Shown one piece after another: positions 2,261 through 31,590 of a stretch of DNA of 34,490 nt (its first letter is position 1; each line of letters opens with the position of its first letter). The stretch is from an uncultured bacterium (lineage in GTDB: Bacteria > Planctomycetota > UBA1135 > GCA-002686595). The translations under genes and the position numbers were made by a program. The notes under the pieces are model-generated. The model was not told the origin of the DNA. It worked only from the letters and a program-made list of their open reading frames with translations, and did not search any database. The DNA lies in the NCBI GenBank assembly GCA_913058555.1, contig CAJXRJ010000002.1:1-34490 (forward strand), written 5' to 3'.

Positions 2261-2670
2261 GGCTGAAGCCGCGGAATCGAGACTCCCTGCCGCAGTCGGC
2301 CTGGTAGGCCGCGAACGGCAGCGCACGATCCTCAGGTGCGAGGGCATCCAGCCCGAGCCAGCGCGGTAGTCCTCGCGGAGCGTATCGGTCTGAGCGAGGG
2401 CGTGCTCGCCATGGAGAATTGAGAATAAAAGAAGAGGCTTAGGGCACGGCTTTGCGAACGTTTCGCTGCGGGGTCGACGCCGCTTGGCGCCCTCTTTGGA
2501 CACGATCTGATTGCCTCCGTGTCGCTTCAATCGAAATCGGTTCAGCCTCTTTTTGGGTCGCCGTTTGGGCGAATCGCCGCCCTGGCGAGGCCATGGAATC
2601 GGGCCTACTCTGCACGGCAAGGCCGGCGTGACTTCCCCGTGGGCCCAGAACTCAACCCGTAGGAATTGAC

Positions 2671-5412
2671 ATGCTCGCAGCACTAATTCTCGCCCCTTGG
2701 CTCGCCCAGCTCGGCGACCCCATAGAAATCACAGACTTCCCTGGGGAGTGCTCTGCCTTCGCCACGGGGGACTTCGACGGTGATGGTATCGACGACGTCC
2801 TTCTTGCTGTGAAGGACCTGGAGCGCCTTGTCCTTGCGCAGGGGGATTCCAGTGGCACGCTGCGGAGGTCACGGGTCGTAGCCCCCTCGCTGGCCAGCTT
2901 CACCGCGCTCATCCTCACGGACCTCGACGGCGATGGCGACGGCGACGTAGCGGCGATGGACGAGTCGAGCGGCCGAGTCTACGCCTACGTAAACCTCGGG
3001 GGCTCCGCCCTCGCTCCGCCAACTCTGGTGGCGGACTTTGGTTCGCCGCTGGCACCCTCCGTCAGCCCCTTCGAGCTCGCCTCCGGAGACGCTAACGGCG
3101 ACGGCGCGACCGATATTCTCGTCGCCGTGAGCGACAACACAGCAAGCACCGAACTCGGTGTCTGGCTCATTGAGTCGGTGCCGGGCGCGACCCAGGGAGC
3201 GACGGCCTTCGCACCACGGGTCCGCTACTGGGCGGAGGCCGGACGAGCCCTTGCGCCCTCGGTGGAGGATGTGGACGGTGACGGCGCGCCAGATCTCGTC
3301 CTTGTTCGACCACAGACTTCCCGAGTGGTCTGGGCCCGAAACGTCGGCACGTTGCCATTCGCAAGCACAGCGGCCCTGACCGATATCATCCCTGGCCTTG
3401 TCTCGGCGCAGATCGGGGACGTCGATGCAGATGGAACTCCGGACGTTCTCGCCACAAGCAATGGGCTCGCGGCCAAGCTCCAGATTGCCCGCGGCCTCGG
3501 CGGCGGCGCGTTTGCCCCATCGACGGACTTCCAGCCCGGCGCCAACGCGACGCGGAGGCGAATCCGGATCCAGCTCGCGGACCTAGATGGGGATGGCATC
3601 CTCGACATTCTTGAGGAGTTCATGGACTCCACGAACCGGTTCTCCGTCAGCTGGTTTCGCAATCTCGGTTCAGGGGCGACCCTTGCGAATCACGTTTTCC
3701 TGCGTCGTGCCTTTGGAGAACGCCTGGGGGCATCCATCGCAGACCTGGACGGCGACGGGCAATTGGACGTGGTCTCCGGCGTGGGGAGCGGCACCGTGAC
3801 TGAAGACGTGCCGGTAAAATGGCACGTCAATGAGGTGTTGCCCCCGTTGGGCATCTTTCGGACAACGAAGCCGGTCACCCTCAAAGTGAACGCGATGGAC
3901 TGGGCGACCGCTGCGGATCTGAATGGGGATGGCCTCCAGGATCTGATTCTCGGACGCTTTGATGACGAGGCCTTCTTCGCGGATGGACGAGGCAGGGGAG
4001 AGTTCGCCCGGTTGGACGAGTCTTCCACTATCAGAAGCGCGGGCTACACCCCTCTACTACCGCTCGACTTTGACGGGGACGGCGACCTCGATCTCTTGTC
4101 GACAACGGTCACCAACGTGGCGACGGGCTCAGTCCTCTTTGACTTCAAGAACGCAGCGCGCTGGATGATCAACGACGGGGACGCCGGCTTCACGGCGGGC
4201 CCAGCTTTTGGAACACCGCTCTCCGAGCCCATTTCATTCACAGGACTGCTCGACGACGACGGCGATGGGACTCACGAAGTGATTGAGCTTGTGGGCAATG
4301 AACTTCGGATCCACGCCCGGGATGCCCAAGGTGACTTTGTGCCGGGAACCGGGCGGCTCTTGGGGGCCGGCAACCAAGTATTCACTGGTGGGGTGGCGAT
4401 CGGTGACATGGATGGGGACGGCCTCGAGGACCTCGTGTATCGCCGATCGTTTTCATTCAACGGGCCCAATACTCTGCGCTTTCTGAGGAACCTGCCCGGC
4501 GTGGGGTTCGCGTCGGAGGTGCAGTTTGGAAACGTCGTGGCCCCGGGGTCGCTCCAGGTGGTGGACCTCGATCAGGACGGCGATCTCGACCTGGTGGCCA
4601 TGCGCTCTGACGGCGAAGCGCGGATGCTGCGCAACGAGGGCAGTGCCTCCGCCTTCACCGAGGTCTTGCTTGTCCCATCGATGCTGGGAGCATCGGAGAC
4701 GCGGTTCGTGGTGGCGATGGATGCCAATGGAGACGGCCAGCAAGATCTAGTCCGTGCCGGTGTTGAGATCGTGTCCGCCGGCAACTTCATCGTCTCCATA
4801 GGCGTCGCGGCCGGCCAAGGCGGCGGGGCATTTGGCAACTTCGCTGATCTTCCCGTACGGGAGTCCAATCTCCGTGGGCGCATGTACCCCGCCGACGTGG
4901 ACGGGGACGGGGATCAGGACTTGGTGGTGGGCTGGTCCGACGGGGTTCAGAGCTTTTACCCGGGCGAGGCGACTCGCTGGCTCGGCGTGAGTGAGTGTGG
5001 GCCCGCCGTGCCGAACATCACGGGGGAGCCAGGGCAGATTCAGGCCGTTGGGTCTGACCTTGCGGCGGACGACCGCCTGTCAGTTCAGGCCTTCTCTCTA
5101 GTTCGCAACACGCTCGGGATCTTCATCACAAGCCAAACGGCACAGGTGACGCAGCTTTCCAATTCCCTTGGCCGGCTGTGCCTTGGGGGCAACATCGGAA
5201 GGTTCACGCGGCCCGGGGATACGATCACCACCGGCCCGGGCGGATTCATGGAGCTTGAGGTCGGCTTGGGGGACATCCCCACCGCCCAAGGGCCGGTTTC
5301 GGCTATCGCAGGCCAGACCTGGCGATTCCAGGCGTGGACCCGTGACCTAGACCCCGCGACGATGCTCCCGACCTCCAACTTCACGGACGCAGTCGCCGTG
5401 ACGCTCCGGTAG
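2671..5412 (+). CDS. Secreted FG-GAP/VCBS repeat protein, 913 aa, with conserved C-terminal module
   Basis: Hydrophobic N-terminus MLAALILAPWLAQ. Many D.DGDG(I/D)DD repeats. C-terminus CGPAVPNITGEPGQ...RLCLGGNIGRF...GQTWRFQAWTRD...SNFTDAVAVTLR. Confidence 0.93.
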   Translation: MLAALILAPWLAQLGDPIEITDFPGECSAFATGDFDGDGIDDVLLAVKDLERLVLAQGDSSGTLRRSRVVAPSLASFTALILTDLDGDGDGDVAAMDESSGRVYAYVNLGGSALAPPTLVADFGSPLAPSVSPFELASGDANGDGATDILVAVSDNTASTELGVWLIESVPGATQGATAFAPRVRYWAEAGRALAPSVEDVDGDGAPDLVLVRPQTSRVVWARNVGTLPFASTAALTDIIPGLVSAQIGDVDADGTPDVLATSNGLAAKLQIARGLGGGAFAPSTDFQPGANATRRRIRIQLADLDGDGILDILEEFMDSTNRFSVSWFRNLGSGATLANHVFLRRAFGERLGASIADLDGDGQLDVVSGVGSGTVTEDVPVKWHVNEVLPPLGIFRTTKPVTLKVNAMDWATAADLNGDGLQDLILGRFDDEAFFADGRGRGEFARLDESSTIRSAGYTPLLPLDFDGDGDLDLLSTTVTNVATGSVLFDFKNAARWMINDGDAGFTAGPAFGTPLSEPISFTGLLDDDGDGTHEVIELVGNELRIHARDAQGDFVPGTGRLLGAGNQVFTGGVAIGDMDGDGLEDLVYRRSFSFNGPNTLRFLRNLPGVGFASEVQFGNVVAPGSLQVVDLDQDGDLDLVAMRSDGEARMLRNEGSASAFTEVLLVPSMLGASETRFVVAMDANGDGQQDLVRAGVEIVSAGNFIVSIGVAAGQGGGAFGNFADLPVRESNLRGRMYPADVDGDGDQDLVVGWSDGVQSFYPGEATRWLGVSECGPAVPNITGEPGQIQAVGSDLAADDRLSVQAFSLVRNTLGIFITSQTAQVTQLSNSLGRLCLGGNIGRFTRPGDTITTGPGGFMELEVGLGDIPTAQGPVSAIAGQTWRFQAWTRDLDPATMLPTSNFTDAVAVTLR

Positions 5413-6910: not shown

Positions 6911-8398
6911 TCAGCGGAACGTCACCTCGGCGGCGTCCGTGAAGTTGGAGCCTGCGACATCGCGGTGCCACACCTGGAACGTCCACGTTTCCCCCGCGGA
7001 CACGGACGTAGCGCCGCTCCCCGCTGGGATCGCGGACAGATCGATGCCGAGCTCGTAGTCACCGCTGGCGCTAGCCGCCCCCACGGTGATGCGCCCTATC
7101 GAGCCACCCAGGCAGAGGGTTCCCGCGGATCCGCCAGCCATCGGCACATGGCCCTGGGTCATGGACATGATCGGCAGTACCACCGCGCCCGGCGGCAGCG
7201 ACGTGGCGCGAAGAGCCAAAAACGCTTCCGCCACCTCGGCGGATCCAAGCGCGGCGACCTGGCCGGGGGCCCCCGTCGAATTGGGCACCGCCGGGGAGCA
7301 GTAGGCAACTGAAACCACCGGGTCCACGTCAATCCAATACGTGGTGCCATTTGCCTCGGCGACAAACTGCATACCGTCCCGGGACATGCCGCGCACGACG
7401 ATCGAGGGGCCGAGATCCGGCCCGCCACGCGCGAGCAGGAAGTCGCGGAACCGCACCGTTGCCGCTCCCTGAATCGCGATAATGGACGTGGACTCCATGG
7501 AGAAAGGTCGCGTATCGCCGCGGTACCCCACCACGATGTTCCCGTCATCACTCGCGAACTTCCCGGAGTGATAGACCATGGCAGTTGGCGCACCGATCGT
7601 AGGAAGAGCCTGAACCCCCGTCGCCTGACTCCAGCAGAACGCACGCTGCCCACCGCTTCGCGTACCGACGACCCACTCGCCGTTCGGGCTGACCCCAAAT
7701 GCCTGACTCATGAGTCCCCCGGCGACAGGATCGATCAGCGTCGGAGTTCCAGTTTCATCCCAGACGGCCGCGCGAATCTCCAGGTTGGCGTTCACAAATC
7801 CCACGATGACGGTGCCGTCTTCGTTGATGGCCTGGGGAAACGGATAGGTCGTTCCAGCGGGGGCGACGATGGTATCGATCGTCCCGGTCGTTCGATCCCA
7901 GAGGTAGGTCTCGCCCAACGAGATCTGCGAATCCGTCCCGCCGAGCACCACGTTGCCGTCACCTGAGAGGTAGAGCGGCCGGCGATGGCCGGGACCTGCG
8001 ATCGGAGTCCAGCCTGCCTGGAGATCCCAGACGAAGCCACCGGTCGAGGCATCCCCTGCGAGCACTATGCTTCCATCGGAAGAGAGATCACGCCCAACCG
8101 AGTTGGGACCGCCAAGATCTGTCCAGCCAGCCCCGGGGCGCCATCCAGTAGGACCACCCGTCCGGAGGCTTAGGGCAGCCCAACCGACAACGACGATGAG
8201 AATCCCGAGGGCAGCGACCTTCCCATGAGCAGGATCAGGATCATGAGAGGGACCGTGGTTGCCTTGCCAGCTCCAGCTGGGCGGGCCATGGGAGAGAGTG
8301 AGTGGAATGCGATGGCGGTCCTCGCGGGGATGGGCCCAGGTGCCAACGGGGATCGGGCCAGGCTCGATCTGTGGCGAAGTAGCGCCGACCCGGGACAC
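6911..8398 (-). CDS. Extracellular HAF-repeat family protein with conserved C-terminal module (start uncertain)
   Basis: 495 aa ORF. Repeats of the type DLSSDGSIVLAGDASTGGFVWD, LSGDGNVVLGGT...YLWDRTTGT, VSPNGEWVVGTRSGGQRAFCW. Hydrophobic segment VAALGILIVVVGWAAL is internal, so the true start is probably downstream of 8398. C-terminus CSPAVPNSTGAPGQ...TLCLGGSIGRI...GETWTFQVWHRDVAGSNFTDAAEVTFR. Confidence 0.82.
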   Translation of the reverse strand: MSRVGATSPQIEPGPIPVGTWAHPREDRHRIPLTLSHGPPSWSWQGNHGPSHDPDPAHGKVAALGILIVVVGWAALSLRTGGPTGWRPGAGWTDLGGPNSVGRDLSSDGSIVLAGDASTGGFVWDLQAGWTPIAGPGHRRPLYLSGDGNVVLGGTDSQISLGETYLWDRTTGTIDTIVAPAGTTYPFPQAINEDGTVIVGFVNANLEIRAAVWDETGTPTLIDPVAGGLMSQAFGVSPNGEWVVGTRSGGQRAFCWSQATGVQALPTIGAPTAMVYHSGKFASDDGNIVVGYRGDTRPFSMESTSIIAIQGAATVRFRDFLLARGGPDLGPSIVVRGMSRDGMQFVAEANGTTYWIDVDPVVSVAYCSPAVPNSTGAPGQVAALGSAEVAEAFLALRATSLPPGAVVLPIMSMTQGHVPMAGGSAGTLCLGGSIGRITVGAASASGDYELGIDLSAIPAGSGATSVSAGETWTFQVWHRDVAGSNFTDAAEVTFR

Positions 8399-12354: not shown

Positions 12355-14535
12355 TCAATCTCGCTTGCTGTAGACAATGGTGAGGTCGGGCAGAGCGCGG
12401 GAGCGCCATTCGGCGCCAATGGCTTCGCCCGTATCCACCAGAAAGGACACCGTGTCCTGAGGGGTCTGCCCGTACCAGTCAAAGTTCACGAACTCCGACT
12501 TGGAAACGGGACGGAACGTCCTCGCCATTTTGGACGGTTCCAAGGACCAGTCGAAGCGGCACAGGCCGCCTTCGTAGATCCCGATCTGGACAGCTGCGTC
12601 CTTCTTCTTATGGCTTAGCTGAATCGCGACCTCGTAGGAGTCCCACCTCTCGTGGTAGACGCTGAGAACGTCGAAGCGTTCCAGGGGGCCGTGAACCTCG
12701 AGGTGAGACGGCCAATCGTCCGAGGCGATCCGCTTGGACCATTCGGCATAGGCGTCGCTATACACCATCGACTGGAGGTACTCGTAATCTCTGTCCATGA
12801 TCGCATGGAGCGCCTTGGTCGCTAACTCGACAGCCGCCTTCGGGGAGATGGCCCCCTCGCCGTCTTGCTCGAGCATGAAGTCGTAGGGCTGCAAGCCCAG
12901 AAACACCACCTTCAGCTGCCGGGCTCGCTTCTCGTGTTGGAGCTCGAGGATGACCTCCACGAAGTCCTTCTTGGATGCTGTGGAAGCGATCGCCACGGTG
13001 CTTTCAAGGCTGCCATGCTCCCGAATCTGCTTCGGCCAAACGCGCCGTATCAGATGGTCTGGCGATCCGAACCGAGAGGCCGGCACCGACTCGGAGCGAA
13101 TCCAATCACTATTGCCGCGCTCGACGGCCGTCACGAATTCCAGGGCCATGCGGACGTGCTCTTGGTGAGCGGGTTGCACCCGGCGACCCTCGGGCGCGAT
13201 GCCGCGAAAAAGTGGTTCGCGCCGCATCGGCGGTCGTGGCTCGGCAGCCAACCTGTCGATGCGCAAGGCTGTGCCCGCGCGCTCCACCACCAGGCGCCTG
13301 GGGTTGCGATCTGAGAGGTACGTCCCCAGCCATCGGTTCAGGTCGCTGTCATCAAGCGTGACGACGGGAGGGGGCACGGGGTACCGGGCCTTCCCCCCCC
13401 ATAGCAGCGACTCCAGGTGCCGAGCCAGATGACGGGATGGGACCTCCTCGACGTTCGAAAGAAGGATCACTGCCGAGTGGCTGTCCGGGAAACGCTGGTA
13501 CTCCCCTTGGAAGCCTCGAACGTGGCCACTGTGACCCACTCGACGTTCGGACTGCTGGGTGGTCCCAATGGCCCAGCCGAGTCCATGGTGGTTCCTAGGG
13601 GAGCGCTTCCTCACAGTCATCTCCATGAGCTCGACGGTCCCTGGGGCAAGAATGTCGCCCGCCCGGAGCGCCTCCGTGAAGCGCCAAAGATCGCTCACCG
13701 TCGTCACCATTCCGCGCACTCCCTGGTTGTGATAACCGTAGCCCCCATAAGGCTGTTCGGTCGCGCGCCGAATCATGCGTTCTCCATCGTAGCCGGCGGC
13801 CAGCCTAACGGGATCGAGGTCCGTGTCGCCGATGAAGCCCGTGTCCTCCATTCCCGCGGGGCCGAACAAGTGCTCCTCGCAGAACGCCGAGAAACCCATG
13901 CCTGAGGTCAACTCGACCACGCCGGCAAGCAGTGCGAAGCCACCATTCGATGGCTCGTAGCCAAGGCCAGCGATGCGGTGGCGCTCCGCACCAAGATAGG
14001 CAGAGACAGCGGCTTCAAGGTCGTCTCCTCTCCCCGCTGCCGCGTCTTTCGGCATGCCCGAGTAGTGGGTGAGCACATCCAAGATCGTGATCCGGCTCCT
14101 GTCCTTCAGGGGGATCGTTCCGTGATGCGGCACGCCTGGGAGGTGCTGCGCCAGCGTGTCCTCAAGGCTGATTCGCGACTCCTCCACCAGCTTCATGATC
14201 GCGCACGCGGTGAAGGGCATCATGGCCTCCCCGATCTCGAACATGGTGTCCGCGTCGTTCCCGCGCTTCGCCCCTCGATCGGACAGCCCATACCCTTGGG
14301 CTAAGACGATTTCCCCCTCCTTTGCCACCAGCACCGAACCCGACCAGCCGTGGGCTTCACAGCGCTGTAGGTACTCATCGAGGGAGCCTCGCAGCGACGC
14401 TCGCGTGGACTCGCTGCGCTGCGAGGCCCCACGGGCATGGGAAAGGGACGGGCCGGAGCGAGCACCGTAGGCGATGGCCATGCCCAGTCCCAAGCAGGCG
14501 AAGGCCCGTGTCAGCGCGGTGGGAGGGCTCCTCAT
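12355..14535 (-). CDS. Beta-lactamase/serine-hydrolase-fold protein with catalytic motifs replaced, plus C-terminal extension
   Basis: Start at MRSPPTALTRAFACLGLGMAIA within ORF 12355..14649. Family landmarks: VLVAKEGEIVLAQGYGLSDR, MFEIGEAMMPFTACAIMKLVEESRISLEDTLAQHLPGVP, HYSGMP, YEPSNGGFALLAGVVELTSG, GYGYHNQGVRGMVTTVSDLWRFTEAL, VGHSGHVRGFQG. Confidence 0.85.
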   Translation of the reverse strand: MRSPPTALTRAFACLGLGMAIAYGARSGPSLSHARGASQRSESTRASLRGSLDEYLQRCEAHGWSGSVLVAKEGEIVLAQGYGLSDRGAKRGNDADTMFEIGEAMMPFTACAIMKLVEESRISLEDTLAQHLPGVPHHGTIPLKDRSRITILDVLTHYSGMPKDAAAGRGDDLEAAVSAYLGAERHRIAGLGYEPSNGGFALLAGVVELTSGMGFSAFCEEHLFGPAGMEDTGFIGDTDLDPVRLAAGYDGERMIRRATEQPYGGYGYHNQGVRGMVTTVSDLWRFTEALRAGDILAPGTVELMEMTVRKRSPRNHHGLGWAIGTTQQSERRVGHSGHVRGFQGEYQRFPDSHSAVILLSNVEEVPSRHLARHLESLLWGGKARYPVPPPVVTLDDSDLNRWLGTYLSDRNPRRLVVERAGTALRIDRLAAEPRPPMRREPLFRGIAPEGRRVQPAHQEHVRMALEFVTAVERGNSDWIRSESVPASRFGSPDHLIRRVWPKQIREHGSLESTVAIASTASKKDFVEVILELQHEKRARQLKVVFLGLQPYDFMLEQDGEGAISPKAAVELATKALHAIMDRDYEYLQSMVYSDAYAEWSKRIASDDWPSHLEVHGPLERFDVLSVYHERWDSYEVAIQLSHKKKDAAVQIGIYEGGLCRFDWSLEPSKMARTFRPVSKSEFVNFDWYGQTPQDTVSFLVDTGEAIGAEWRSRALPDLTIVYSKRD

Positions 14536-16849: not shown

Positions 16850-17899
16850 CACGACCGCGCCGCCGGATTGGCCGATTGCACCGCTGAGTCAGAACTTCGC
16901 TCGGTTCGGGCAGTCCTGTGCGGTGGAAGGAGACCTCATCGCGGTAGGGCATGGCCGCTTCGGCACGACGCCCGCGGGGGTCTTCCTCTATCGATTCAAC
17001 GGCGCCACCTGGGAGATCGAAGGCACCGTGAGCGAGCCTCCCAGAACGGCGAGCTTCAAGTTTGCCTCGCAGGTCTACCTCGCGCAGGGAAGGCTGATCT
17101 GTCCCGATGACAACGCCTCCGACGGGGCGACAAGCGGGCAGGGAGCCGTCTACATCTTCGAGAAGGTCGGAGGCGTCTGGTCAAGAACCCAGGTGCTCGA
17201 CCGGGACGGCGGCGAGTTCTTTGGCAGTCGCGTGGCCGCCGACGGAGATCACATCGCCGCTAAGTTCGGGGACTTCGTCGACGTGTTCTCATTCGACGCG
17301 GGAAGCGGTACGTACGCACGCGAGGAAAGGCTCCCGTTCGAAACTGGCGTCATAGATTGTGCTCGAGGTACAAGGAGGCGTTTGACTCGCAGGCACTTAC
17401 GCCCGCGCCTGACACAAGCAGGGCCACGGAGGGCACCATTTCGCCCTAAGTGCAAGGGGCGACCAAGCATCTACCCGGCACGGGCACAATTAAGAACGCC
17501 AACCCCGAAGTCAACTCTTCGGGGAGGACCGGAGCGCTCCTGGCGAACGGTTCGGCGAGCCTCACGGATGCCAACCTGACGCTCCAGGCCTCGCGGCGCC
17601 CCCAGGGCGCCACGTGCCTCTTCCTGTGCAGCCTCGGCGAGGGATCGATCGCCGCGCCCGGCGACGCTTACGGAACCCTCTGCCTGGGCGCACCCATCCG
17701 CCGCTTCACCGCATCGAGCCAGGTCGGCGCCGCGGGTCCGAACGGCGCTCGCGCGCTCGATCTTCCACTGGACGCCTTCCCGGAAGGACTCGGCACCCGC
17801 CCGGTGATGGCCGGCGAATCCTGGTACTTCCAGGCCTGGTACCGCGACGGCGCCGCGTCGACCTTCACCGACTCCACCAACGTCTCCTTCCTGCCCTAA
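16850..17899 (+). pseudogene. Disrupted FG-GAP (integrin-like) protein: N-terminal part to ~17365, then C-terminal module ~17490-17899 in another frame
   Basis: ORF 16482..17579 carries DWPIAPLSQNFARFGQSCAVEGDLIAVGHGRFGTTPAGVFLYRFNGATWEIEGTV...GAVYIFEKVGGVWSRTQVL...FFGSRVAADGDHIAAKFGDFVDVFSFD. It then degenerates. ORF 17450..17899 carries NPEVNSSGRTG...TLCLGAPIRRF...GESWYFQAWYRDGAASTFTDSTNVSFLP. Confidence 0.7.
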
Positions 17900-18020: not shown

Positions 18021-19220
18021 TCACTGGAATTGAATCTCGTAGCCGTCGGTGAAGTTCGACCCGAGTCCAACGGAATCACGGTGCCAGGCCTGGAAGTTCC
18101 AACTCTGGCCCGCCATGGCGGCCACGGAGCCGTTGCCTTGGGGAATCGTGTTGAGGTTGATCATTAGCGAGAAGTCCCCTGAGGCGCCGGTGCTCAAGAT
18201 CTGGCCCGCCCCGTTGTAGCGGCCAATGACACCACCCAAGCAGAGGTTGCCGTTGCTCGAGCCGTTGGTGCCGGGCACAAAGGCTTGGGTCATGGACACC
18301 ACAAAGATGCCGAACTGATTGGACGGGAGACCGAAGGCGGTCAGCGTCACGTTGTTGGCTGAGGCCTGGAGGGACCCTGAGGCCGACATCACTCCGGTGG
18401 AGCCCGTGGAGTTCGGCGCGGCCTTGCAGTAATTCGCCCCGGGCTCAAGCACGCCGAATTCGATGTTGTCGAGCCCGTACGCTGCACCCTCGAAGTGCAA
18501 CCACATCGCGTCCCAGAGTGCCGGGTTCGTCGCGTCCATCGCAGAAGGCGACAGCGCTAGGGCTACCGCCTGTAACGCTGCGACCGGCGTAAACGTCGTC
18601 TGTCCGGTAGTGAGGTTCATCACCTCGACGGAGCCTAGCCCCGTGCCGCCGTTCGCGCCGAGGTCCATCACAACGCGCACGCGAACCCAATTGCCACTCG
18701 AGATCCCATTTCCAGCGAGTGGCGCCTGCGTCGCGGTCCCATTTGCTGCTATCAGCCGTAGCTGGGCATTCGACTGGCCGCCCAGGTCAAAGCGAACGCC
18801 CCGCTCTCCCGCCTCGGAGCCTCGGATTTGGTTGTTCCCGTTGGTGTCGTGAGCAGCCCCGAAGCTACCGCCCCACCAACCGACTTGCATGTCGGCCTGG
18901 AAGTATGCGTTGGCCTCGAGACCGGAGAACGACGCGTAACTCCACGCTGCGTCGTTAATCCGCGACGCATCTGTGCCGAAGCCGGGCCCCGACTCCTGGA
19001 AGCGCAGCGACTTCGTGCCGTCGTGTGACATTGTCGCCGTCACGCCCATCGAGGCCGCCGCGTTGAAAGTCTCTTCACTCCATCCGTCTTGACCATCGAG
19101 CGGGGCAAACGGGTGGGTGTCGGAGCCGATCAAACCCTCGAAGTCGTACACGGACTGCGAGAGCCCAATGGAGGGAATCGTGAGGAGTAGGAAAGTCGTT
19201 CGGAACATGCGAATCCTCAT
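18021..19220 (-). CDS. Secreted protein with conserved C-terminal module
   Basis: Start at MRIRMFRTTFLLLTIPSIGLSQ within ORF 18021..19394. N-terminal beta-rich region (YDFEGLIG...FQADMQVGWWGGSFG...WVRVRVVMDLG). C-terminus CKAAPNSTGSTG...NLCLGGVIGRY...GQSWNFQAWHRDSVGLGSNFTDGYEIQFQ. Confidence 0.88.
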   Translation of the reverse strand: MRIRMFRTTFLLLTIPSIGLSQSVYDFEGLIGSDTHPFAPLDGQDGWSEETFNAAASMGVTATMSHDGTKSLRFQESGPGFGTDASRINDAAWSYASFSGLEANAYFQADMQVGWWGGSFGAAHDTNGNNQIRGSEAGERGVRFDLGGQSNAQLRLIAANGTATQAPLAGNGISSGNWVRVRVVMDLGANGGTGLGSVEVMNLTTGQTTFTPVAALQAVALALSPSAMDATNPALWDAMWLHFEGAAYGLDNIEFGVLEPGANYCKAAPNSTGSTGVMSASGSLQASANNVTLTAFGLPSNQFGIFVVSMTQAFVPGTNGSSNGNLCLGGVIGRYNGAGQILSTGASGDFSLMINLNTIPQGNGSVAAMAGQSWNFQAWHRDSVGLGSNFTDGYEIQFQ

Positions 19221-19698
19221 ACTTGAGAAGGGAAATTTCAGGCGGTCGCGCACGGGCCTCACCGCCTCGTTGGAGGAAAGCCGGCCCGTCTCGCGTGCCA
19301 TCCATGTCCCCCATTGGACGGCAGTCAGAGACGGTTGGCGTCGCACCGTAGCACGGCCGCCACAGATGCGAGCGAATACGGCTCTAGAGTGCACCGAACG
19401 CCCGTACGGGCTTCGCCTGGCCCAACAGCAACAACGCAGGGCCGATCATGGGGACGTGCTAGGTCGCACCCTGGGCCGTGAGCATCCCGTTTGCCCCCCA
19501 CGGCATCCTCACGGCCCCGAAGATCGACACGATGCCGAGGACGCGACCTCCGAGCACTCTGCATTGTTCGTCGCGGCCAGTACTTCGTAAGTGGGATATG
19601 GCCATGATGAATCCCCTGGTTACGTTTTGCCACGGGATGTGCCACGTCGCCCAGCCCGCATCCCCACTGCGATCGCAAGTCTCTTGTCGAAGCACCGG

Positions 19699-19898: not shown

Positions 19899-21116
19899 TC
19901 ACATGGACGTCGACCCAACACTCTTTGGGTAGACAAGATGCGGCTCGACGCGGCCGCGCCACTCGGGCACGGCCGTGGCCGATTGGATGGTCGACAGCAG
20001 CGGTGTCGCGGGATCTGCGAGTAGCCCGGCGATGTCGCGGCGGCCCAGCAGCAGCGCAATGTGACGATCGCCCGTTGGGTTGGCGGCCGTGGGGTAGCGG
20101 GTCCACTCGAAGCAGTCTTGGGAGTGCCGAATGGTCCACGCGAGCAGCCACAGTCCCGCTGCTACGGGGCGGAAGCGCTCGGGATCGATGAGCTTCAACC
20201 GGACTCCGTGGCAACGCTCTCCAGCGTATGGCGCGATGGACGGGGTGAAGGTGACTCGCTCGCTCTCGACACCCGGTAGTGGCCTCGCAGTCAGAGCCGT
20301 GTGCATGGCCGATGGGTCGATCCACGGTGCGCCGATTTGCTCGAAGGGGCGCGATGTGCCCCGCCCGACGCTCAGGTTCGTCGCCTCGAACAAGCACAGG
20401 CCGGGATAGAGCAGGGCACTCTGGTAGCTGGCCATGGCAGGCGAAGTCGGCACGAACGGTACCCCGGTCGCCGGCCAGTGATCCGTGCGGTTCCAGCCTG
20501 CGGCCGCCACAACGTGAAGCTCGACGTTCAATCGCTGCTCATGGTTCCACAATCGGGCCAGTTCCCCAATGGAGAGCGAATGTCGAATCGGCATCGCCCA
20601 GCGGCCCAGGAAGCTGGCGCAATGGTCGACATCCAGCATCGGCCCCTCAGCTGCTGCCAAGTCGCCTCCGATGGGATTAGGGCGATCCAGCACCCACACT
20701 GGCAAGCCAGCCTGACCGCATGCCTCGAGCATCTGCGACATGCTCCAGATGAACGTATAGAACCGAGCGCCGATATCGGGCAGGTCGACGAGCACCCCGT
20801 CCAGATCCTCGAACATGGCCAGCTCAGGATGCATCCGCTCGCCATAGAGACTGACGACCTCCAACCCGGTGGCTGGATCGAACCCATCCGGCACGCAGGC
20901 TCCATCGGCCGCCGTGCCCGCCATGCCGTGTTCGGGGGAGAAGAGGCGCACCAGCTGCACCCCGGCGCCCAGTAGCGCCTGTCGACCGAGACCGTGCGGG
21001 GCAGAGGCCGTGGTGGCGGCGTCATTAGTAAGCAGTCCAAAGCGCATACCAGCCGGCAAACGGGCATGCCCGCGGACGAGTTGATCGACGCCGTAACCGA
21101 AGGGCGGAGGACTCAT
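19899..21116 (-). CDS. namZ: DUF1343 family protein (exo-beta-N-acetylmuramidase NamZ-like)
   Basis: GYGVDQLV...FGLLTNDAATTASAPHGLG...VQLVRLFSPEHGMAGTAADGACVPDGFDPATGLEVVSLYGERMHP...DLDGVLVDLPDIGARFYTFIWSMSQMLEACGQAGLPVWVLDRPNPIGG: diagnostic DUF1343 motifs. Confidence 0.93.
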   Translation of the reverse strand: MSPPPFGYGVDQLVRGHARLPAGMRFGLLTNDAATTASAPHGLGRQALLGAGVQLVRLFSPEHGMAGTAADGACVPDGFDPATGLEVVSLYGERMHPELAMFEDLDGVLVDLPDIGARFYTFIWSMSQMLEACGQAGLPVWVLDRPNPIGGDLAAAEGPMLDVDHCASFLGRWAMPIRHSLSIGELARLWNHEQRLNVELHVVAAAGWNRTDHWPATGVPFVPTSPAMASYQSALLYPGLCLFEATNLSVGRGTSRPFEQIGAPWIDPSAMHTALTARPLPGVESERVTFTPSIAPYAGERCHGVRLKLIDPERFRPVAAGLWLLAWTIRHSQDCFEWTRYPTAANPTGDRHIALLLGRRDIAGLLADPATPLLSTIQSATAVPEWRGRVEPHLVYPKSVGSTSM

Positions 21117-21250
21117 GGATTCGAATGGAAGACAGGCAAGGAATGTGCGATCGCGCAGGGTGGACGAGGGGACGGTCGCCATGGTTCACATGAAACGGTG
21201 ACGAGCCAGCGGCGAGGGGCCGCTGCGATGAGGAGCGCCCCGGATGCGCG

Positions 21251-22380: not shown

Positions 22381-22995
22381 GGACCGAATGGTCGCCACCT
22401 TGGATGGAGCAGTCCAGAGGGTTCTCCGGGAGTTCGGGAGAAGCCCCTGCGAACATCGAAAGCCGCGGCCTTCAGGTCGCCGACGTACAAGAGAGCGAGG
22501 GTCGCCTCGACGTCGCGTCTATGGAGGCCTGGAGTGCGGCTGCCCAGGCGGCTCCGGCCGGGTCGATCGGCGCGCGTCGTAGCGAGGCCGCAATCATTAC
22601 ACCGAGCGTCGAGGGAGTCGCACGATGCCGTCGCCGCGGACCGTAACCCCCCTCGCTGGCCTCCCAACTCACAAGGGCATGGGGCGTCAGCGTACTCGTA
22701 CCTTGGTATCACAACTCGGTGACATTCGAATGGCCGGAAGAGCTAGTCTCGTTTGTGAGGCTGCTGACGTAACCGACCTTCTTGTGGTGGGGGTAGCTGG
22801 CCCGGAGCCGCAGTAAGGGGCCAGCTTGGCAGTAGTGTGCAGTACCGTGAAGCGGATGGTTCACGGCGAGAGACGTGACCCTTGCTCTTGCAGAACCCTG
22901 AGCTCAGTACCGACGTATTCCGGCACAAGCGTCGCTCGATCCCGAGACACGAAGGCCCCAGGCGTAACTGTCATACCCCTTAGCGAGACGTTCCC

Positions 22996-24102
22996 ATGAA
23001 GACCCCACTAGGCCTAACGTCCGTTCTGGTCATTGCCGCACCGGCACTTGGCTCTGTCGCGGCCCAACCCACCTTGATCGACACCGTCACGTTGACATCC
23101 ACGGCGGACAACACGATCTACTCCATTGGGGGCAACGCACGTAGCAATGGCGCCGGACCTACGATGGCGGCTGGAATTGCAGCAGATGGCGGCATCACTC
23201 GCGCTCTCGTGCGATTTGATGCCACGGGCGCGATTCCTACCCATGCGACTATCAATAGCGTTTCCTTGGTCTTGCACATCGACGGAACCGCTGCATCGAG
23301 CTCGCCCTCTTCCTTCATCTCCGTACGCCGCCTTCTGAATAGCTGGGGCGAAGGGTTGTCCACTCCGATCGTGGGGCCGGGCAACGGTGGAGTGGCCACC
23401 AAAGGTGACGCGACCTGGTTCCACCGATTCTTCCCCAGTCAGAGCTGGAGCGTGCACGGAGGTGACTTCGCCTGGCCATGGAGCTCCCACTTAGACGTCG
23501 GCTCGGCGGGGAGCGCCATATTCACTGGTGCAGGACTGGTCGCCGACGTCCAAGCGTGGGTGAATCTGGACACGCCGGAATTCGGGTGGCTCCTTCTGGG
23601 GGATGAGCAAGGCGCCGCCTCTGCGCGCTTCCTTAGCACCCGCGAGAGTGTGCACCCCCCCCAGCTCGTGGTCGACTACACCTACCCAACACTCCCGCTC
23701 GGAACCAACTACTGTGACACAGGACTCAACAGCTCTGGGTTCCGGGCGACTCTTACGGGGCGGGGATCCCCAAGGGTCATCGACAACAACTTGACGATCA
23801 CGGCCCATTTGCTGCCGCTCCTCCAGTTTGGTCTCATCTTGACCTCGCAAACGCAGGCGACGCCCGGCTCCATTAATCTCTGCCTTGGCGGCCAAATCGG
23901 ACGCTTTGCAGCTCCTTCACAGATTCTGGATAGCGGAGTCGGTGGCACCTTCTCCCTCTCACTCGACCTCAATGCCTTCCCCCAGGGAAGTGGGCTCGTG
24001 GCGGTTACGGCCGGCCAAACATGGAACTTCCAAGCGTGGTTCCGGGACACCGCTGCCCCCGGTTCCAATTTCACTGACGGCCTCGAGATCCAGTTTCGCT
24101 AG
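22996..24102 (+). CDS. Secreted DNRLRE-domain protein with conserved C-terminal module
   Basis: MKTPLGLTSVLVIAAPALGSVAAQ signal. TLTSTADNTIYSIGGNARSNGAGPTMAAG and RALVRFDATGAIPTHATINSVSLVLHI (DNRLRE). C-terminus CDTGLNSSGFRA...NLCLGGQIGRF...GQTWNFQAWFRDTAAPGSNFTDGLEIQFR. Confidence 0.92.
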   Translation: MKTPLGLTSVLVIAAPALGSVAAQPTLIDTVTLTSTADNTIYSIGGNARSNGAGPTMAAGIAADGGITRALVRFDATGAIPTHATINSVSLVLHIDGTAASSSPSSFISVRRLLNSWGEGLSTPIVGPGNGGVATKGDATWFHRFFPSQSWSVHGGDFAWPWSSHLDVGSAGSAIFTGAGLVADVQAWVNLDTPEFGWLLLGDEQGAASARFLSTRESVHPPQLVVDYTYPTLPLGTNYCDTGLNSSGFRATLTGRGSPRVIDNNLTITAHLLPLLQFGLILTSQTQATPGSINLCLGGQIGRFAAPSQILDSGVGGTFSLSLDLNAFPQGSGLVAVTAGQTWNFQAWFRDTAAPGSNFTDGLEIQFR

Positions 24103-24242
24103 CTGGGGAGATACGGCGGGCTGCCGGTGATCACGCAGTTGCCCATGGCGGTCCGCTCGAGATTCGGGCTGTTCGTCGACGGGAGGTGCTGGGCGATTGG
24201 AGTGACTGAGCGCGCGGCTGGCGCCCGTGATACCTTGGGAAT

Positions 24243-25883
24243 ATGAAAGTCGCGGCACTTCTGTTGTGCTCCGGCGCGTCGGCCTGGGGCGTGCCAGCAG
24301 GTGATCTCTTCGTGGATCTTTTGGCCGACTGCGCGGTGAGCGACGGGTCCATGTCGGCTCCCTTCTGCTCCGTGGGCGAGGCGCTGCTCTTCGCGGCGGA
24401 CGGGGATGTGATTCGGGTCGCTCCGGGCGCGTATGGGGAGCGAATCACGGTGGATCGCAACGTCACGCTGAAGGGGGAGCAGGGCGCCGAGGTGACGGTC
24501 ATCGATGGGAACCGGGGCGGGACGGTGCTGACGCTTGCGCCTGGCACAGATGTCTCCATCGATGGACTCACGATTACCGGTGGTCTGGGGGTTGGCGCGG
24601 GAGGCATCCTGAGTCAAGGCAGGCTCGTGCTTCGCAATTCGACGATCCGGGGGAATGAGTCGTCGTCTCCGGCCTCCAACTCTTCCGGCGGGGCGCTCTT
24701 GCACGAGTCGATGGATCCTTTGACGATCGATGGTTGCCGTTTCGTCGACAACATCGTCGATGCTGGCCCCACCGGTGCTCCCGTGCAGAAGAACGGTTCC
24801 GGGCAAGCAACCATCCGTCGTACATCGTTCGAGCGCAATCGTGGCTGGGAGTGCGGAGCCGTCAAAGTCGACGGTGGGTTCCTCGAGATGACCGAGTGCA
24901 CTTTAGCCGGCAACACCTCTGCACGTCTTTTGGGCACCATCGTTGTGGCCGGAGACGGTTTGCTCCTCGCAAACTCGACGATCGATGGGAACGAGGGTTC
25001 GGGCGTGCACTTCCAAAGCTACGCGTCCGGTTCGTTGGTGGTGCAAAGCTGCACTATCACGGACAACGATCGAACCGCGACGTTCTATGCCGGCGCGCTC
25101 GATTCCGCCGCCGGTGTTCCGGTGACGGTGTCGAACTCCATCCTGGTGGGAGGCGGCGTGGGCGACGTCTTCGGCGCCTTCATCTCCGGCGGTTACAACG
25201 TCGTGGGGACGCGCGGGGTAAACAACCCAGTTTTCGCTCCGGCCGCTGGCGATCTCCTCGGATGGATCCAGCCGCCTCTGCCAGAGCTGCAGCTCATGCC
25301 GTTCGCGGACAACGGGGGGCCCACGCTCACTCGCATGCCCGCCTGCGACAGCATCTTGGTCGACACCGGGCCGTCCTCTCCCCTCGATCCGACGGACCAG
25401 CGCGGGGTGACGCGCGCTGCTGGGCGGGTCGATCGGGGGGCGGTGGAGAGCGACTGTGCGCGATCCCCCGTTTGTGTGAGCGTGCCCAATTCGACCGGTG
25501 CAGGAGGAGGCCTCGCCTTCTTCGGCGGCACATCGGTGACCGCGGACCGCTTCGGGCTGAATCTGGCGGACGTCCCTCCGCAGCAGTTCGCGATGCTCTT
25601 GGTGAGCCGGGCGTCAGGGTTCCAGCCAGGTGCAGGGGGTAGCGTCGGGAATCTCTGCCTCGGCGGTTCCATCGGTCGCTACTCCTCGCCGGGCGAGCTG
25701 ATCCAGATTGACGGATCAGGCAACGCGCGGGTTCTCGTGCCCCTTTCAAGGATTCCCCAGGGAGCCGGCGCCGTGGCGGTGCTTCCCGGGGAGACCTGGT
25801 TCTTCCAGGCGTGGCACCGGGATCGTGTGGGGACAGCGAACGTGTCGAACTTCACGTCGACCGTCGCCATGAGCTTCCGGTAG
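24243..25883 (+). CDS. Right-handed beta-helix / choice-of-anchor-Q type secreted protein with conserved C-terminal module
   Basis: GEALLFAADGDVIRVAPGAYGERITVDRNVTLKGEQGAEVTVIDGN, LVLRNSTIRGNE, FADNGGPTLTRMPACDSILVDTG...DQRGVTRAAGRVDRGAVES. C-terminus CVSVPNSTGAGGG...NLCLGGSIGRY...GETWFFQAWHRDRVGTANVSNFTSTVAMSFR. Confidence 0.92.
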   Translation: MKVAALLLCSGASAWGVPAGDLFVDLLADCAVSDGSMSAPFCSVGEALLFAADGDVIRVAPGAYGERITVDRNVTLKGEQGAEVTVIDGNRGGTVLTLAPGTDVSIDGLTITGGLGVGAGGILSQGRLVLRNSTIRGNESSSPASNSSGGALLHESMDPLTIDGCRFVDNIVDAGPTGAPVQKNGSGQATIRRTSFERNRGWECGAVKVDGGFLEMTECTLAGNTSARLLGTIVVAGDGLLLANSTIDGNEGSGVHFQSYASGSLVVQSCTITDNDRTATFYAGALDSAAGVPVTVSNSILVGGGVGDVFGAFISGGYNVVGTRGVNNPVFAPAAGDLLGWIQPPLPELQLMPFADNGGPTLTRMPACDSILVDTGPSSPLDPTDQRGVTRAAGRVDRGAVESDCARSPVCVSVPNSTGAGGGLAFFGGTSVTADRFGLNLADVPPQQFAMLLVSRASGFQPGAGGSVGNLCLGGSIGRYSSPGELIQIDGSGNARVLVPLSRIPQGAGAVAVLPGETWFFQAWHRDRVGTANVSNFTSTVAMSFR

Positions 25884-26178: not shown

Positions 26179-28485
26179 TCAATCGAACAGAACTGCTGTG
26201 GCGCGCGTGAAGTTGGACCCGGCTCCGACGGAGTCCCGATGCCAGGCTTGGAAGTACCAGGTCTGTCCCGGCATCACGGCCTGCGTTGGAGTCGTCGGCA
26301 ACATCGCCGTGTTGATGCCCAGGGAGAAGCCGCCGGTGGACCCTGAGCTTTGGACTTGACCAGCCCCGCTGAATCGGCCGAGAACTCCGCCGAGGCAGAG
26401 GCGGCCGTTGCTTCCAGGCGGAATGAGAGAACTCGTCCCTGTCGCGCAGATGAAGAACCCGAACTGGTTAAGCGGCAGCTGATCGGCCTGCATGACCACG
26501 GCACCCGCGCTGGCCAAGTGGCTCCCCCTCACGCGAATGCGTCCCAGTTGGCCCGTGGAGTTGGGCACCGCTGGGTTGCAATAGGCGCGGCCGATGCAAT
26601 CCGTTGGATCAAGTCGATAGTGGGCCCCGTAGATGTTGTAAGAGGCCTGATCGCAAGCCCAAGCCGCGAAGGTCGAGCCGCTCGGGCCGCCCGAGCTGTA
26701 GAGACTCGCAATGGCAGCAGAACCATGGTTGCCGATCGCACCTCCGCATCCCAGCGGTACGCGAGATTCGGACTCGCACAGGTTGTTTCCAGCGAGGGCG
26801 AAGGTCGATGCGAGGATCTCAGTGTCGCCTGGCCCGACACTGTCCATCCAAACCATGCCGAATCGTTCTCCGTCATGGTCGACCATCGCCACGTTTCGCA
26901 CCGCGTTGAGGTTCACTCCACCTTGGTCGGTCAGATTCTGGGAGAAGATGGGGGTAGCGCCTTCGCAGACGGTGGCCACGAGGTCGGAACCGGGAGCGAC
27001 CTGCGCCTGTTGGAAGACGACCAGGTAACGGTCTCCAGCACTCTGAAGGTCCGCGGTGACGGACGGCCGAAGCAACTCCCCGGGAAGGTCTGCGATCGTA
27101 TGGTCCGGGTGAAGGACGTTGCCGCTCCAGGACACCGTGGCCCCACGGATATGACGGCCGCTCCCTTCGCCAGCCGCGTAGACCACATTGAACCTGCCCG
27201 AGGGCCCCGCCGTGCTGGCGACCGCGGGGTAGACCGCCCTCAGCGGGCCCTGGTAGAGCCGCAGATCGTCGAAGAGGCAGGTGCCGGAACTATCGACACG
27301 CGTGCAGACGACCCTCTGATTGCCGTTGGTGTCGCGTTCGATCCAGGTCACCAGCCAATAGCTGGACTGCGCGAGGACGACCTCTCCGCCGACGTCCGGG
27401 GTTTCGTTGGAAACGAACTCGATGCTGGAGAGGCCACGGGCCGGACCTTGATCGCCCGTCGCGGCTTCAACGGTTCGGTAGCCGATGTTGAAGAAGCCGC
27501 CGGTGAGGAGCTGCTCCGCAACAATCAGGAAAGAGTCGCTGAAGTTGTTGTTCGCGACGCGCGGCGAAAACCAGCTCTGCGTCGTGATCTCCCAATAGTC
27601 TTCTTCGACTGTGGCCAGAGAGCTCCGATCCAGCATCCTCCAGTAGATGTCGCGATCTGTGCTCGCCGCCGACTCTTGGTACACGACGATGATGCGGTCC
27701 GTTGTCAGGTCGTAGGAGATGTCAGGCCGGTAGAGGTCGGCGGTGAAGTCGTCGACGATGAACGAGGTGACGAGGGGGTCGATCGTGACCGGCCACTGTG
27801 CGCCCTTGAGGAAAGCCTCGGACACTTCGATCTGAAGGCTCCCGTCGGCCCAGCGCGTGACGGCTGGCTCTTCTTTTCCGGCCGCGTCGAGTACCGTCGC
27901 CGCCCCGTAGTGCACGCCACCCGCCTCGTTCCGGAAGAGGAAGCCGCCGTCCAGGGGCTCGGGCTTCAGCTCCGTCTCCACGGGGATTGTCACCGTGAGC
28001 GCTCCGGGGCCGAGCGGAGAATCGATGGTGAAGAGCTGCTCGATCGACTCTGTTCCAAGTCGATACCACTCCGTCATCGGGCCACGCTCGTAGCGCACTT
28101 CCGTAGCGGATCCGAACGGCGCTGCATCCCCGTTCAGCGCCATCTCCTCGCCGCCGATAGCGAGACTCGGCGACCGCATCGAGAATCCGAAAAGGCGCGG
28201 CTTGTCAGACCCGAGCAAGGGGTAGAAGGTGGTTGCCCCGGGGGCAAAGCTCGACTTGTAGGTCTTACCCCGCGCCCAGAAGGCATCGTTCGCTTCTTGG
28301 GTGTAGACCCTCGTCCAGCGATCGGCGCTGAGCTCCTTGATCTGGTCCAGTGTTTCTTGCGATAGGCTCGCGGGAGGCGCGTCGTCCTCTAGCACGGCGC
28401 GTTCGGGAAATTGAGCGGTCTGGCCGGGGGCTGACAGCACGAAACAGGGGCCCAGTAAAGCCGCTATCGCAAGGCGAGAAGTCAT
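26179..28485 (-). CDS. Large secreted protein with conserved C-terminal module
   Basis: Start at MTSRLAIAALLGPCFVLSAPGQ within ORF 26179..28680. Long beta-rich region with DRIIVVYQES..., RYLVVFQQAQ..., RFGMVWMDS repeats. C-terminus CNPAVPNSTGQLGR...RLCLGGVLGRF...GQTWYFQAWHRDSVGAGSNFTRATAVLFD. Confidence 0.9.
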   Translation of the reverse strand: MTSRLAIAALLGPCFVLSAPGQTAQFPERAVLEDDAPPASLSQETLDQIKELSADRWTRVYTQEANDAFWARGKTYKSSFAPGATTFYPLLGSDKPRLFGFSMRSPSLAIGGEEMALNGDAAPFGSATEVRYERGPMTEWYRLGTESIEQLFTIDSPLGPGALTVTIPVETELKPEPLDGGFLFRNEAGGVHYGAATVLDAAGKEEPAVTRWADGSLQIEVSEAFLKGAQWPVTIDPLVTSFIVDDFTADLYRPDISYDLTTDRIIVVYQESAASTDRDIYWRMLDRSSLATVEEDYWEITTQSWFSPRVANNNFSDSFLIVAEQLLTGGFFNIGYRTVEAATGDQGPARGLSSIEFVSNETPDVGGEVVLAQSSYWLVTWIERDTNGNQRVVCTRVDSSGTCLFDDLRLYQGPLRAVYPAVASTAGPSGRFNVVYAAGEGSGRHIRGATVSWSGNVLHPDHTIADLPGELLRPSVTADLQSAGDRYLVVFQQAQVAPGSDLVATVCEGATPIFSQNLTDQGGVNLNAVRNVAMVDHDGERFGMVWMDSVGPGDTEILASTFALAGNNLCESESRVPLGCGGAIGNHGSAAIASLYSSGGPSGSTFAAWACDQASYNIYGAHYRLDPTDCIGRAYCNPAVPNSTGQLGRIRVRGSHLASAGAVVMQADQLPLNQFGFFICATGTSSLIPPGSNGRLCLGGVLGRFSGAGQVQSSGSTGGFSLGINTAMLPTTPTQAVMPGQTWYFQAWHRDSVGAGSNFTRATAVLFD

Positions 28486-28531
28486 CGGATATCGCAGGTG
28501 AGGGTCTTGGGAACGAGCGCTCGGACCAATG

Positions 28532-28555
28532 GGGCGCGGTCTCGAGACCGCGCCC
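28532..28555. promoter_or_regulatory. 24-bp perfect palindrome upstream of the 833-aa-ORF gene
   Basis: GGGCGCGGTCTCGAGACCGCGCCC, 47-70 bp upstream of the chosen start at 28485. Function unproven. Confidence 0.5.
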
Positions 28556-28687
28556 TCCGCGCCTAAGACCCCGACTGAGGAGCGTTCCCGAATGGCCCAC
28601 TGAAATCCGGCTCTTTTTCGCCAGGACGCCCCATGTCTCGCCTTCGCGATCCGTCCGCCGACCTGCGGCCGTCCCGCCAAGGCCTTA

Positions 28688-28821
28688 AAAGTACGGAGCC
28701 AGGATCATTCTTTCGCTTTTGATCCTGGCAGTCGAGTCGCGATCACATGGGCAGCCCACTCGATCGTGCCTCGCTGGCTGAAAGCGAAAAATTGATCCTG
28801 GCTCCGTACTTCCGTACTTTG
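28688..28821 (-). repeat. REPIN/MITE-like inverted-repeat element, copy 4 (opposite orientation to copies 2 and 3)
   Basis: AGTACGGAGCCAGGATCATTCTTTCGCTTTTGATCCTGGCAGTCGAGTCGCGATC ... CGCTGGCTGAAAGCGAAAAATTGATCCTGGCTCCGTACTTCCGTACTT. The reverse complement aligns with copy 3 through the spacer. Confidence 0.88.
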
Positions 28822-28964: not shown

Positions 28965-30407
28965 CTAGAGAAACATCACGCTGACGGCGTCGGTGAAGTT
29001 GCTCGTGGCTCCCGGATTGTTGTCGCGATGCCAAGCCTGGAAGTTCCAGGTCTCGCCCACCTGAATGGCTGTGACGCCCGTCGGTGCGGGGACGGAGTTG
29101 AGGTCAATGTCGAGCGAAAACGTGCCTGTCGCCCCGGAATCGAGTACCTGACCTGGCCCGATGAAGCGCGCGATCGCTCCGCCGAGGCAGAGCACTCCCT
29201 GGCTTCCACCGGGCTGAGGGACGTTCCCTTGGTTGCGGCTAGCCACGTAGAAGCCAAAGGCGCTGGGGGGGAGGAACTCCGCTTGCAGCGTGATGTCGTT
29301 CGCCGAAACGAGCGCGCTTCCTCGGATATTGAGGAGCGCCCCTCGGCCTGTACTGTTTGCCACTGGGGAGCAGTAGCGCTCTCCCACTTGGCTGGTGTGG
29401 TACAGCCAGCCCTGGTTGGATGATTGACAGCCGTTGCGCCCTACGATGACAGATCCATCGGCGCTCGCATCGACAGCAAACGGAAGGCAGCCCTGCTGTG
29501 GAAATGTGTCCAGCAGGATGAGTCCGGTAGCAGCGGTCCAACGATAGGTCTCCCCGATCCCTGCCGGCGTTAGGTTGTTGACAAAGACAACGGAGCCATC
29601 TTCGTTGAGACCGTTCGCTGCAGCGGCGATGCTCCCTCCCGGCAGCGCAAGGAACTGCATGCCGGACGCCGCCGTCCAGCGAAACGGCGTTCCATCGAAG
29701 GTCCCGACGATGACCGATCCGTCGCCACTCACTGCCGCTGCGCCCGTGAGGCTCGAGCTAGGTGTCCCTCCGATGGCGACCATTCCAGTGGAGGCCGTCC
29801 AGCGGAATGGTCGCTTCTCGCCATTGGCATCCTTCGCCGTGCCAACGATGATCTCACCGTCATCGCTGACCCCGAACGCCTCGGACGAGTTCCCACCCAG
29901 CGTCCCCAGGCTCTGCTGCCCGGTGGCCTGGGTCCATCGGAACGCTCGAAACCCCGAGCCACCGACCACCACGGAGCCATCCGCGCTCACGCCGTTAGCG
30001 ATCGTCGGTGTAGCGGTCGATGAAGCGATGTCCACCATTCCCGTGGCCGCGGTCCACCGGAACGCATGGCTAACGGCCGAATGTTCGCCCGACTCTCCGA
30101 CGACCACGAGACCGTTTGCGCTGATATCGACGGCGCGGGAGTAGTTCCCAGGACCGCTGAACAGCACGCCCAACGGCTGCGCTCCAGACGCAGCGGTCCA
30201 ACGGAACGCGTGTTGCAGCGGTGTCACCCACCCAGTCGCGGTCCCAGCGACGACGGCGCCGTCAGCGCTGATCGCCGAGGGGTTCTCTCCCTGGGAATTG
30301 ATTGGACCAAAGAACTCGAGCCTACCCTGCGCCTGCGCTTGGGGAGTGAGGATCGATACGAGGGCGCCAACGGTCAGCGCTGCGAACATTTGTTGCGAGT
30401 CAAACAT
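28965..30407 (-). CDS. Extracellular HAF-repeat family protein with conserved C-terminal module
   Basis: MFDSQQMFAALTVGALVSILTPQAQAQ signal. Repeats ISADGAVVAGTATG...AFRWTAASG, ISANGLVVVGESG...AFRWTAATG, VSADGSVVVGGSGFRAFRWTQATGQQSLGTLGG. C-terminus CSPVANSTGRGAL...VLCLGGAIARF...GETWNFQAWHRDNNPGATSNFTDAVSVMFL. Confidence 0.93.
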   Translation of the reverse strand: MFDSQQMFAALTVGALVSILTPQAQAQGRLEFFGPINSQGENPSAISADGAVVAGTATGWVTPLQHAFRWTAASGAQPLGVLFSGPGNYSRAVDISANGLVVVGESGEHSAVSHAFRWTAATGMVDIASSTATPTIANGVSADGSVVVGGSGFRAFRWTQATGQQSLGTLGGNSSEAFGVSDDGEIIVGTAKDANGEKRPFRWTASTGMVAIGGTPSSSLTGAAAVSGDGSVIVGTFDGTPFRWTAASGMQFLALPGGSIAAAANGLNEDGSVVFVNNLTPAGIGETYRWTAATGLILLDTFPQQGCLPFAVDASADGSVIVGRNGCQSSNQGWLYHTSQVGERYCSPVANSTGRGALLNIRGSALVSANDITLQAEFLPPSAFGFYVASRNQGNVPQPGGSQGVLCLGGAIARFIGPGQVLDSGATGTFSLDIDLNSVPAPTGVTAIQVGETWNFQAWHRDNNPGATSNFTDAVSVMFL

Positions 30408-30764
30408 GACTCGATACTACGTGAACTCATCGGATCTCGCCGGCGGCAGGGCTCGACCCGGTGCTTCCCACATCGGCTGTTGCTTCGCGGCGCATCTGAT
30501 CACCCCGGGACCTCGCGATGCGCAACCACGAAGGATGTGACCAGGGCACAGTGCGCCGCTGCGTCATGGGGACCGCGTCCACAGGTAGGCGCGACCCGCG
30601 TGTCATGTGCCGCACGACCTGTAACAGGCCACGGCGTGAGCGCCGGTTGAATAATGGCGATGTAGATTCGTAACGACTTTGAATGTGCGCCCGCGCCCTT
30701 CCTTGCATGGGGCAAACTGGCTTCTCTTCCCATCGAGGCTCCCTACGCGACCGCCCTCCATCCC

Positions 30765-31574: not shown

Positions 31575-31590
31575 CCGGAGCTTGGACCGC

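Follow-up and report, generated by a model that had tools for sequence, protein, structure and literature searches.

On the minus strand of the window, the whole 34,490-nucleotide stretch of planctomycete DNA that was analysed, we found a gene for a protein of the beta-lactamase/DD-peptidase fold in which the catalytic serine, lysine and tyrosine have all been replaced. Judged from these residues, canonical catalysis has very probably been lost from the window protein. The pattern of codon changes indicates that the gene has been under purifying selection, and a sister paralogue with intact motifs lies, most likely, in the same genome.

Pseudoenzymes have been well studied in kinases and proteases. 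They are a recognised kind of protein (PMC10211241, PMC6549527), and a limited literature search for a pseudoenzyme of the beta-lactamase/DD-peptidase fold (PF00144) found no direct precedent. What matters here is the clean sister pair in one genome, alongside which other members of the genus and family show losses of their own. Such a pair makes it testable whether the loss of catalysis turns cell-wall-type hydrolases into regulators or binders.

Reading frame and fold

The source genome, a Planctomycetota draft assembled into 1010 contigs, has 19 PF00144 matches and shares its genus grouping with strain Poly30 (G006; contig CP036434.1), which is Saltatorellus ferox. The open reading frame of the window protein stops at 12355 on the minus strand and could start at GTG 14649 or ATG 14535, and the frame is open. 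ATG 14535 is taken as the start, because a hydrophobic signal-like segment begins there, and the protein is thus probably secreted. Note that two numberings are used, one of 764 aa from the GTG for the motif residues and one of 726 aa from the ATG for the barrel strands. The features of the gene are as follows.

12355..14535, minus strand: entire gene of the pseudoenzyme (726 aa and the stop codon; open frame; PF00144 E 8.6e-45)
14434..14535, minus strand: probable Sec signal peptide, MRSPPTALTRAFACLGLGMAIAYGARSGPSLSHA (judged by eye; the model has a helix over residues 8-24)
13384..14340, minus strand: beta-lactamase/DD-peptidase fold (PF00144), catalytic residues lost (profile match, model, structural matches)
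14218..14229, minus strand: EAMM replacing SxxK, residues 141-144, 764 numbering (alignment with relatives)
13945..13953, minus strand: PSN replacing YxN, which is YWN in the sister family, residues 233-235, 764 numbering (alignment)
13711..13728, minus strand: NQGVRG replacing the YRGMGG of the sister family (alignment)
13525..13533, minus strand: HSG, the kept HxG motif, residues 373-375, 764 numbering (alignment)
13183..13365, minus strand: predicted C-terminal beta-barrel, first half, and linker (model, three strands at 404-429, ATG numbering)
12853..13182, minus strand: NTF2-like domain 1, inserted in the barrel (repeat alignment, separate model, structural matches)
12532..12852, minus strand: NTF2-like domain 2, tandem copy (repeat alignment; by itself it has low model confidence)
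12358..12519, minus strand: predicted C-terminal beta-barrel, second half (model, five strands at 672-724, ATG numbering)

PF00144 is the single Pfam family found in the window protein (residues 104-408, E 8.6e-45), and the score of 153.8 bits, well beyond the cut-off of 27, places the protein in the PF00144 / MEROPS S12 fold family. The NCBIfam equivalog for class C beta-lactamases, with a cut-off of 415, is not reached at 31.1 bits. The sequence-only reading had proposed a beta-lactamase fold and called for a structure prediction; the AlphaFold2 model bears the proposal out, with pLDDT >90 over most of the hydrolase fold. Its Foldseek matches are DD-peptidase R61, Pab87, an FmtA-like protein and class C enzymes, with TM to target of at most 0.84 (4gdn) and E of 1.1e-16 or better for all of the best 50 matches. 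The best PDB match is Pab87, which is octameric. Pab87 and D-aminopeptidase also bear C-terminal barrel domains. With the PF00144 serine hydrolases (family VIII esterases, R61 DD-peptidase, AmpH, Pab87, D-aminopeptidase) the window protein has in common the fold, the HxG motif and the motif positions; however, it is without the catalytic Ser, Lys and Tyr, and a pair of NTF2-like domains is inserted in its C-terminal part.

Changed active-site motifs

The replacements of Ser by Glu, Lys by Met and Tyr by Pro, as well as the retained HSG and the open frame, had been claimed from the letters of the sequence, and all are confirmed by the frame, the PF00144 match and the alignment. Active S12 hydrolases, class C beta-lactamases and family VIII esterases carry SxxK and the Tyr of YxN, where the window protein has EAMM and PSN, respectively; the third motif of active S12 hydrolases (HxG, KTG or WxG) is present as HSG. 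The consensus of the planctomycete family reads FEIAS-x-TK-xFTA, EYWNGGYALL, YRGMGG and HGGDVRGFH, and at the same motifs the window protein reads FEIGEAMMPFTA, EPSNGGFALL, NQGVRG and HSGHVRGFQ. In an alignment with 43 motif-intact relatives, the departures are S141E, K144M, Y233P and G312R; the conservation of the S, K and Y columns is partly due to the selection of motif-intact rows, but that of the G312 column is not. The YRGMGG motif, which holds G312, is common to nearly all close planctomycete relatives. Among the 41 positions kept by at least 90% of the 43 relatives, the window protein departs at 8, compared with 1 to 4 in each of the 14 intact relatives displayed. As far as the alignment tells, the motif walls of the pocket are changed and the scaffold is retained. 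The Ser and Lys of SxxK and the Tyr have roles in the acyl-enzyme route (PMC6995599), and since all three are absent, this route of the family should be impossible for the window protein.

The C-terminal extension

An extension of about 270 aa after the fold had been noted before. The extension exists, but the hydrolase fold ends near residue 422 and about 340 aa follow it, of which the 270 aa are the last part. Based on the model, the extension is read as a beta-barrel split by two inserted NTF2-like domains, an arrangement common to the intact paralogue. The two NTF2-like units form a tandem repeat, as BLASTP (6e-8 between them) and their alignment show. Modelled alone, domain 1 has three helices and a curved sheet at pLDDT 89.9. 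The structure search paired it with NTF2-like proteins, ketosteroid isomerases and a DUF3887 protein, at E of about 1e-3 to 5e-2 and TM 0.5-0.6. These matches are weak singly and consistent together, which gives modest support to the NTF2-like identity; a PDB sequence search with domain 1 gave no real match. Domain 2 is poorly modelled in the full-length job. The relatives inspected have one NTF2-like copy, and two copies were seen only in the window protein and its sister. Matches to DUF3471 and Pab87_oct are weak and occur in relatives only; for example, the sister matches the Pab87 octamerisation domain weakly, at E 0.027, below its cut-off. A search with the extension alone gave matches only inside long open frames, and those checked belong to the same PF00144 proteins.

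An intact sister paralogue

Closest to the window protein is a full-length paralogue on contig C34 (G000:C34:1695-3800, minus strand), with 47% identity over residues 37-754. The two are alike in layout, with the signal, the PF00144 fold, the C-terminal strands and the two NTF2-like domains, whereas SATK, YWN and HGG are retained in the paralogue and changed in the window protein. The two copies are sisters with support of 100/96 in a maximum-likelihood tree, and again at 98 in a further tree built after blanking the motif columns; the branch lengths are 0.58 for the window copy and 0.23 for the C34 copy. The tetranucleotide correlation between C34 and the window is 0.975, compared with 0.981 between the two halves of the window, and the contig and the window are therefore most likely parts of one genome.

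Close orthologues with intact SxxK had been named beforehand as a sign of a single decayed allele. The nearest relative is indeed intact; however, it appears to be a same-genome paralogue at 47% identity and not another allele. Co-localisation with the active sister was not found, as the genes lie on different contigs and their sole shared neighbours are members of a C-terminal domain family common throughout the genome. Gene-neighbourhood comparisons, made against contig C34 as well as the loci of Poly30 and G005, likewise gave no shared neighbours but this common C-terminal domain. At the end of contig C34 away from the paralogue gene (L162 about 1-40), the DNA translates to SLIHISEPTRLGMI, recognisable as sequencing adapter read-through, an assembly artefact.

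Orthologues and parallel losses

No EAMM orthologue was found in 61 relatives, 81 family genomes, 154 order/class genomes or the aligned GTDB loci. A GTDB scan with the single window protein gave no match; with an alignment as the query it gave 80 loci, and EAMM was absent among those aligned. Consequently, the role called conserved in the earlier reading loses that label: no orthologous group with the same changed residues emerged from genus, family, order or the GTDB scan, and the EAMM state is, by these searches, known from one genome.

Other members are altered in different ways, namely those of G005 (SLTQ, RWD), Poly30 (TLAQ, PWT) and G020 (ALSQ, VSN). With motif columns left out, the G005 and Poly30 proteins group at 99. 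The G005 protein is placed differently in two trees, because its branch is long and its Poly30 partner is absent from the first tree. The blanked-motif tree needs at least 4 state changes by parsimony, 2 of which are forced by well-supported branches. The losses in other members of the genus and family appear from these trees to be separate events, and the loss of these residues is thus recurrent here.

The Poly30 and G005 loci (L064 3822-5285 and L065 3606-5036, both minus strand) form a degenerate PF00144 pair of 46.5% identity from two species in the genus of the source genome; K is changed to Q in both, and the remaining motif residues differ between them. Three further proteins, L034 (G024), L039 (G017) and L044 (G016), make up a supported group across three genera with S(T/M/V)PI for SxxK and HSH for YxN. 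By alignment and grouping they are an orthologous set with altered active sites, and for the idea of a conserved pseudoenzyme they offer a stronger test case than the window protein does. In the source genome, L012 (C202; aligned stretch FRAEALVEP) and L016 (C39; aligned stretch YRSAALTHS) are doubtful PF00144 proteins without the motif Ser and Lys, for which the alignment is less sure.

Selection and alternative explanations

The changes unique to the window copy occur at rates of about 0.27:0.20:0.48-0.49 at codon positions 1:2:3, with two outgroups used in turn. In neutral simulations from the sister sequence, a mean of 6 to 16 stops accumulated, and zero stops were obtained in 0-3 of 2000 runs. 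Based on the third-position excess and the stop-free frame compared with neutral simulation, selection, of the purifying kind, is seen to have acted on the window copy. Conservation is 57% in the catalytic domain and 33-48% in the rest; the pairwise dN is 0.48 and dS 1.36, which is near saturation and makes the ratio rough. The catalytic residues are lost and the gene is still selected, as expected of a pseudoenzyme, and that earlier designation holds: Ser, Lys and Tyr are all gone, the fold is modelled with high confidence and the gene is under purifying selection.

It might be argued that the duplicate is being lost, its catalysis removed by relaxed selection and the stops not yet gathered. 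The longer branch (0.58 vs 0.23), a second-position change roughly double that in the sister and the EAMM state in one genome only are consistent with this. The amino-acid change on the window branch, also about twice that of the sister, fits relaxed constraint as well. However, the third-position excess on the copy's own lineage is clear, and 726 codons have stayed stop-free after deep divergence, so that we consider this explanation unlikely.

The window protein could also still be an enzyme that catalyses another reaction through a rebuilt active site, with Glu141, Ser234 of PSN or Arg312 in the catalytic role. Several walls of the pocket have changed together, beyond the nucleophile alone, and activity is known to return in some pseudoenzymes through residues that have migrated (PMC10211241). 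Against this, with no EAMM orthologue found in the genomes searched, no new conserved constellation is visible. Moreover, we know of no acyl-enzyme chemistry on the beta-lactamase fold without the SxxK serine, and a rebuilt enzyme seems quite improbable. That the motif stretch was misassembled or misread, or that the contig is chimaeric, is conceivable in a fragmented draft of 1010 contigs but extremely unlikely, since the substitutions are indel-free at four separate motif sites across about 700 bases, the base composition is even and the tetranucleotides match. Nor is a sequencing error or a single decayed allele, the two refutations named beforehand, what the open frame and the own-lineage preference for third codon positions point to.

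Proposed origin and function

For the window protein, a selected pseudoenzyme by the above evidence, the following origin may be proposed. The ancestor would have been a gene for a PF00144 serine hydrolase whose C-terminal barrel was split and carried two NTF2-like domains, and it would have been duplicated in the planctomycete lineage. The C34 copy would have retained the Ser-Lys-Tyr machinery; the window copy would have lost it, with the fold, signal peptide and accessory domains kept under selection. With the family's serine acyl-enzyme out of reach, the window protein would act outside the cytoplasm by binding. Given that the protein retains its signal and fold together with every accessory domain, a binding role is the best guess, and the binding or scaffold function suggested earlier would agree with it. 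The protein might assemble with the active sister, or compete against it, via their shared C-terminal domains; or it might hold the family ligand, a cell-wall peptide or ester, uncleaved. Taken as a whole, the statement that a duplicated enzyme became a selected, non-catalytic secreted protein, acting as a ligand binder or as the active sister's partner or competitor, has in our judgement an even chance of being right.

Regulation of an active enzyme by a dead paralogue is well established (PMC5201418, PMC10211241). A parallel is the trypanosome AdoMetDC prozyme (PMC5201418), which is itself inactive and has an active paralogue in the same genome, but its fold differs, and a complex of the window protein with its sister is a proposal only. 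It would be a bold extrapolation, and a very doubtful one, that planctomycetes of the source family repeatedly turn secreted PF00144 hydrolases into non-catalytic subunits assembling with active sisters, as a prozyme-like regulation of cell-wall or ester hydrolases.

Other observations in the window

A homologue of the NamZ exo-beta-N-acetylmuramidase with both Pfam domains is located at 19899-21182 on the minus strand, 5 kb from the pseudoenzyme gene. NamZ-type linkage to cell-wall recycling is known in a Bacillus gene cluster. A link to cell-wall recycling via this gene was set aside, as unrelated mixed-strand genes lie between.

In addition, about ten otherwise unlike proteins of the window share a C-terminal domain of about 135 aa, with the pattern CxPxxPNSTG...LCLGGxIGRF...GETWxFQAWHRD..SNFTDA. 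Their reading frames are as follows.

149-2257, 2632-5409, 17450-17896, 22984-24099, 24231-25880 and 31492-32478 (distant), plus strand
6914-8398, 18024-19445, 26182-28704 and 28968-30416, minus strand

No Pfam match was found in this domain. It occurs at least 102 times in the source genome (501 candidates scored), at least 77 times in each genome of the genus and often in the family, and it was found in none of the 16 searched genomes of other families in the order. Based on this distribution, it looks like a lineage-specific sorting or anchoring domain.
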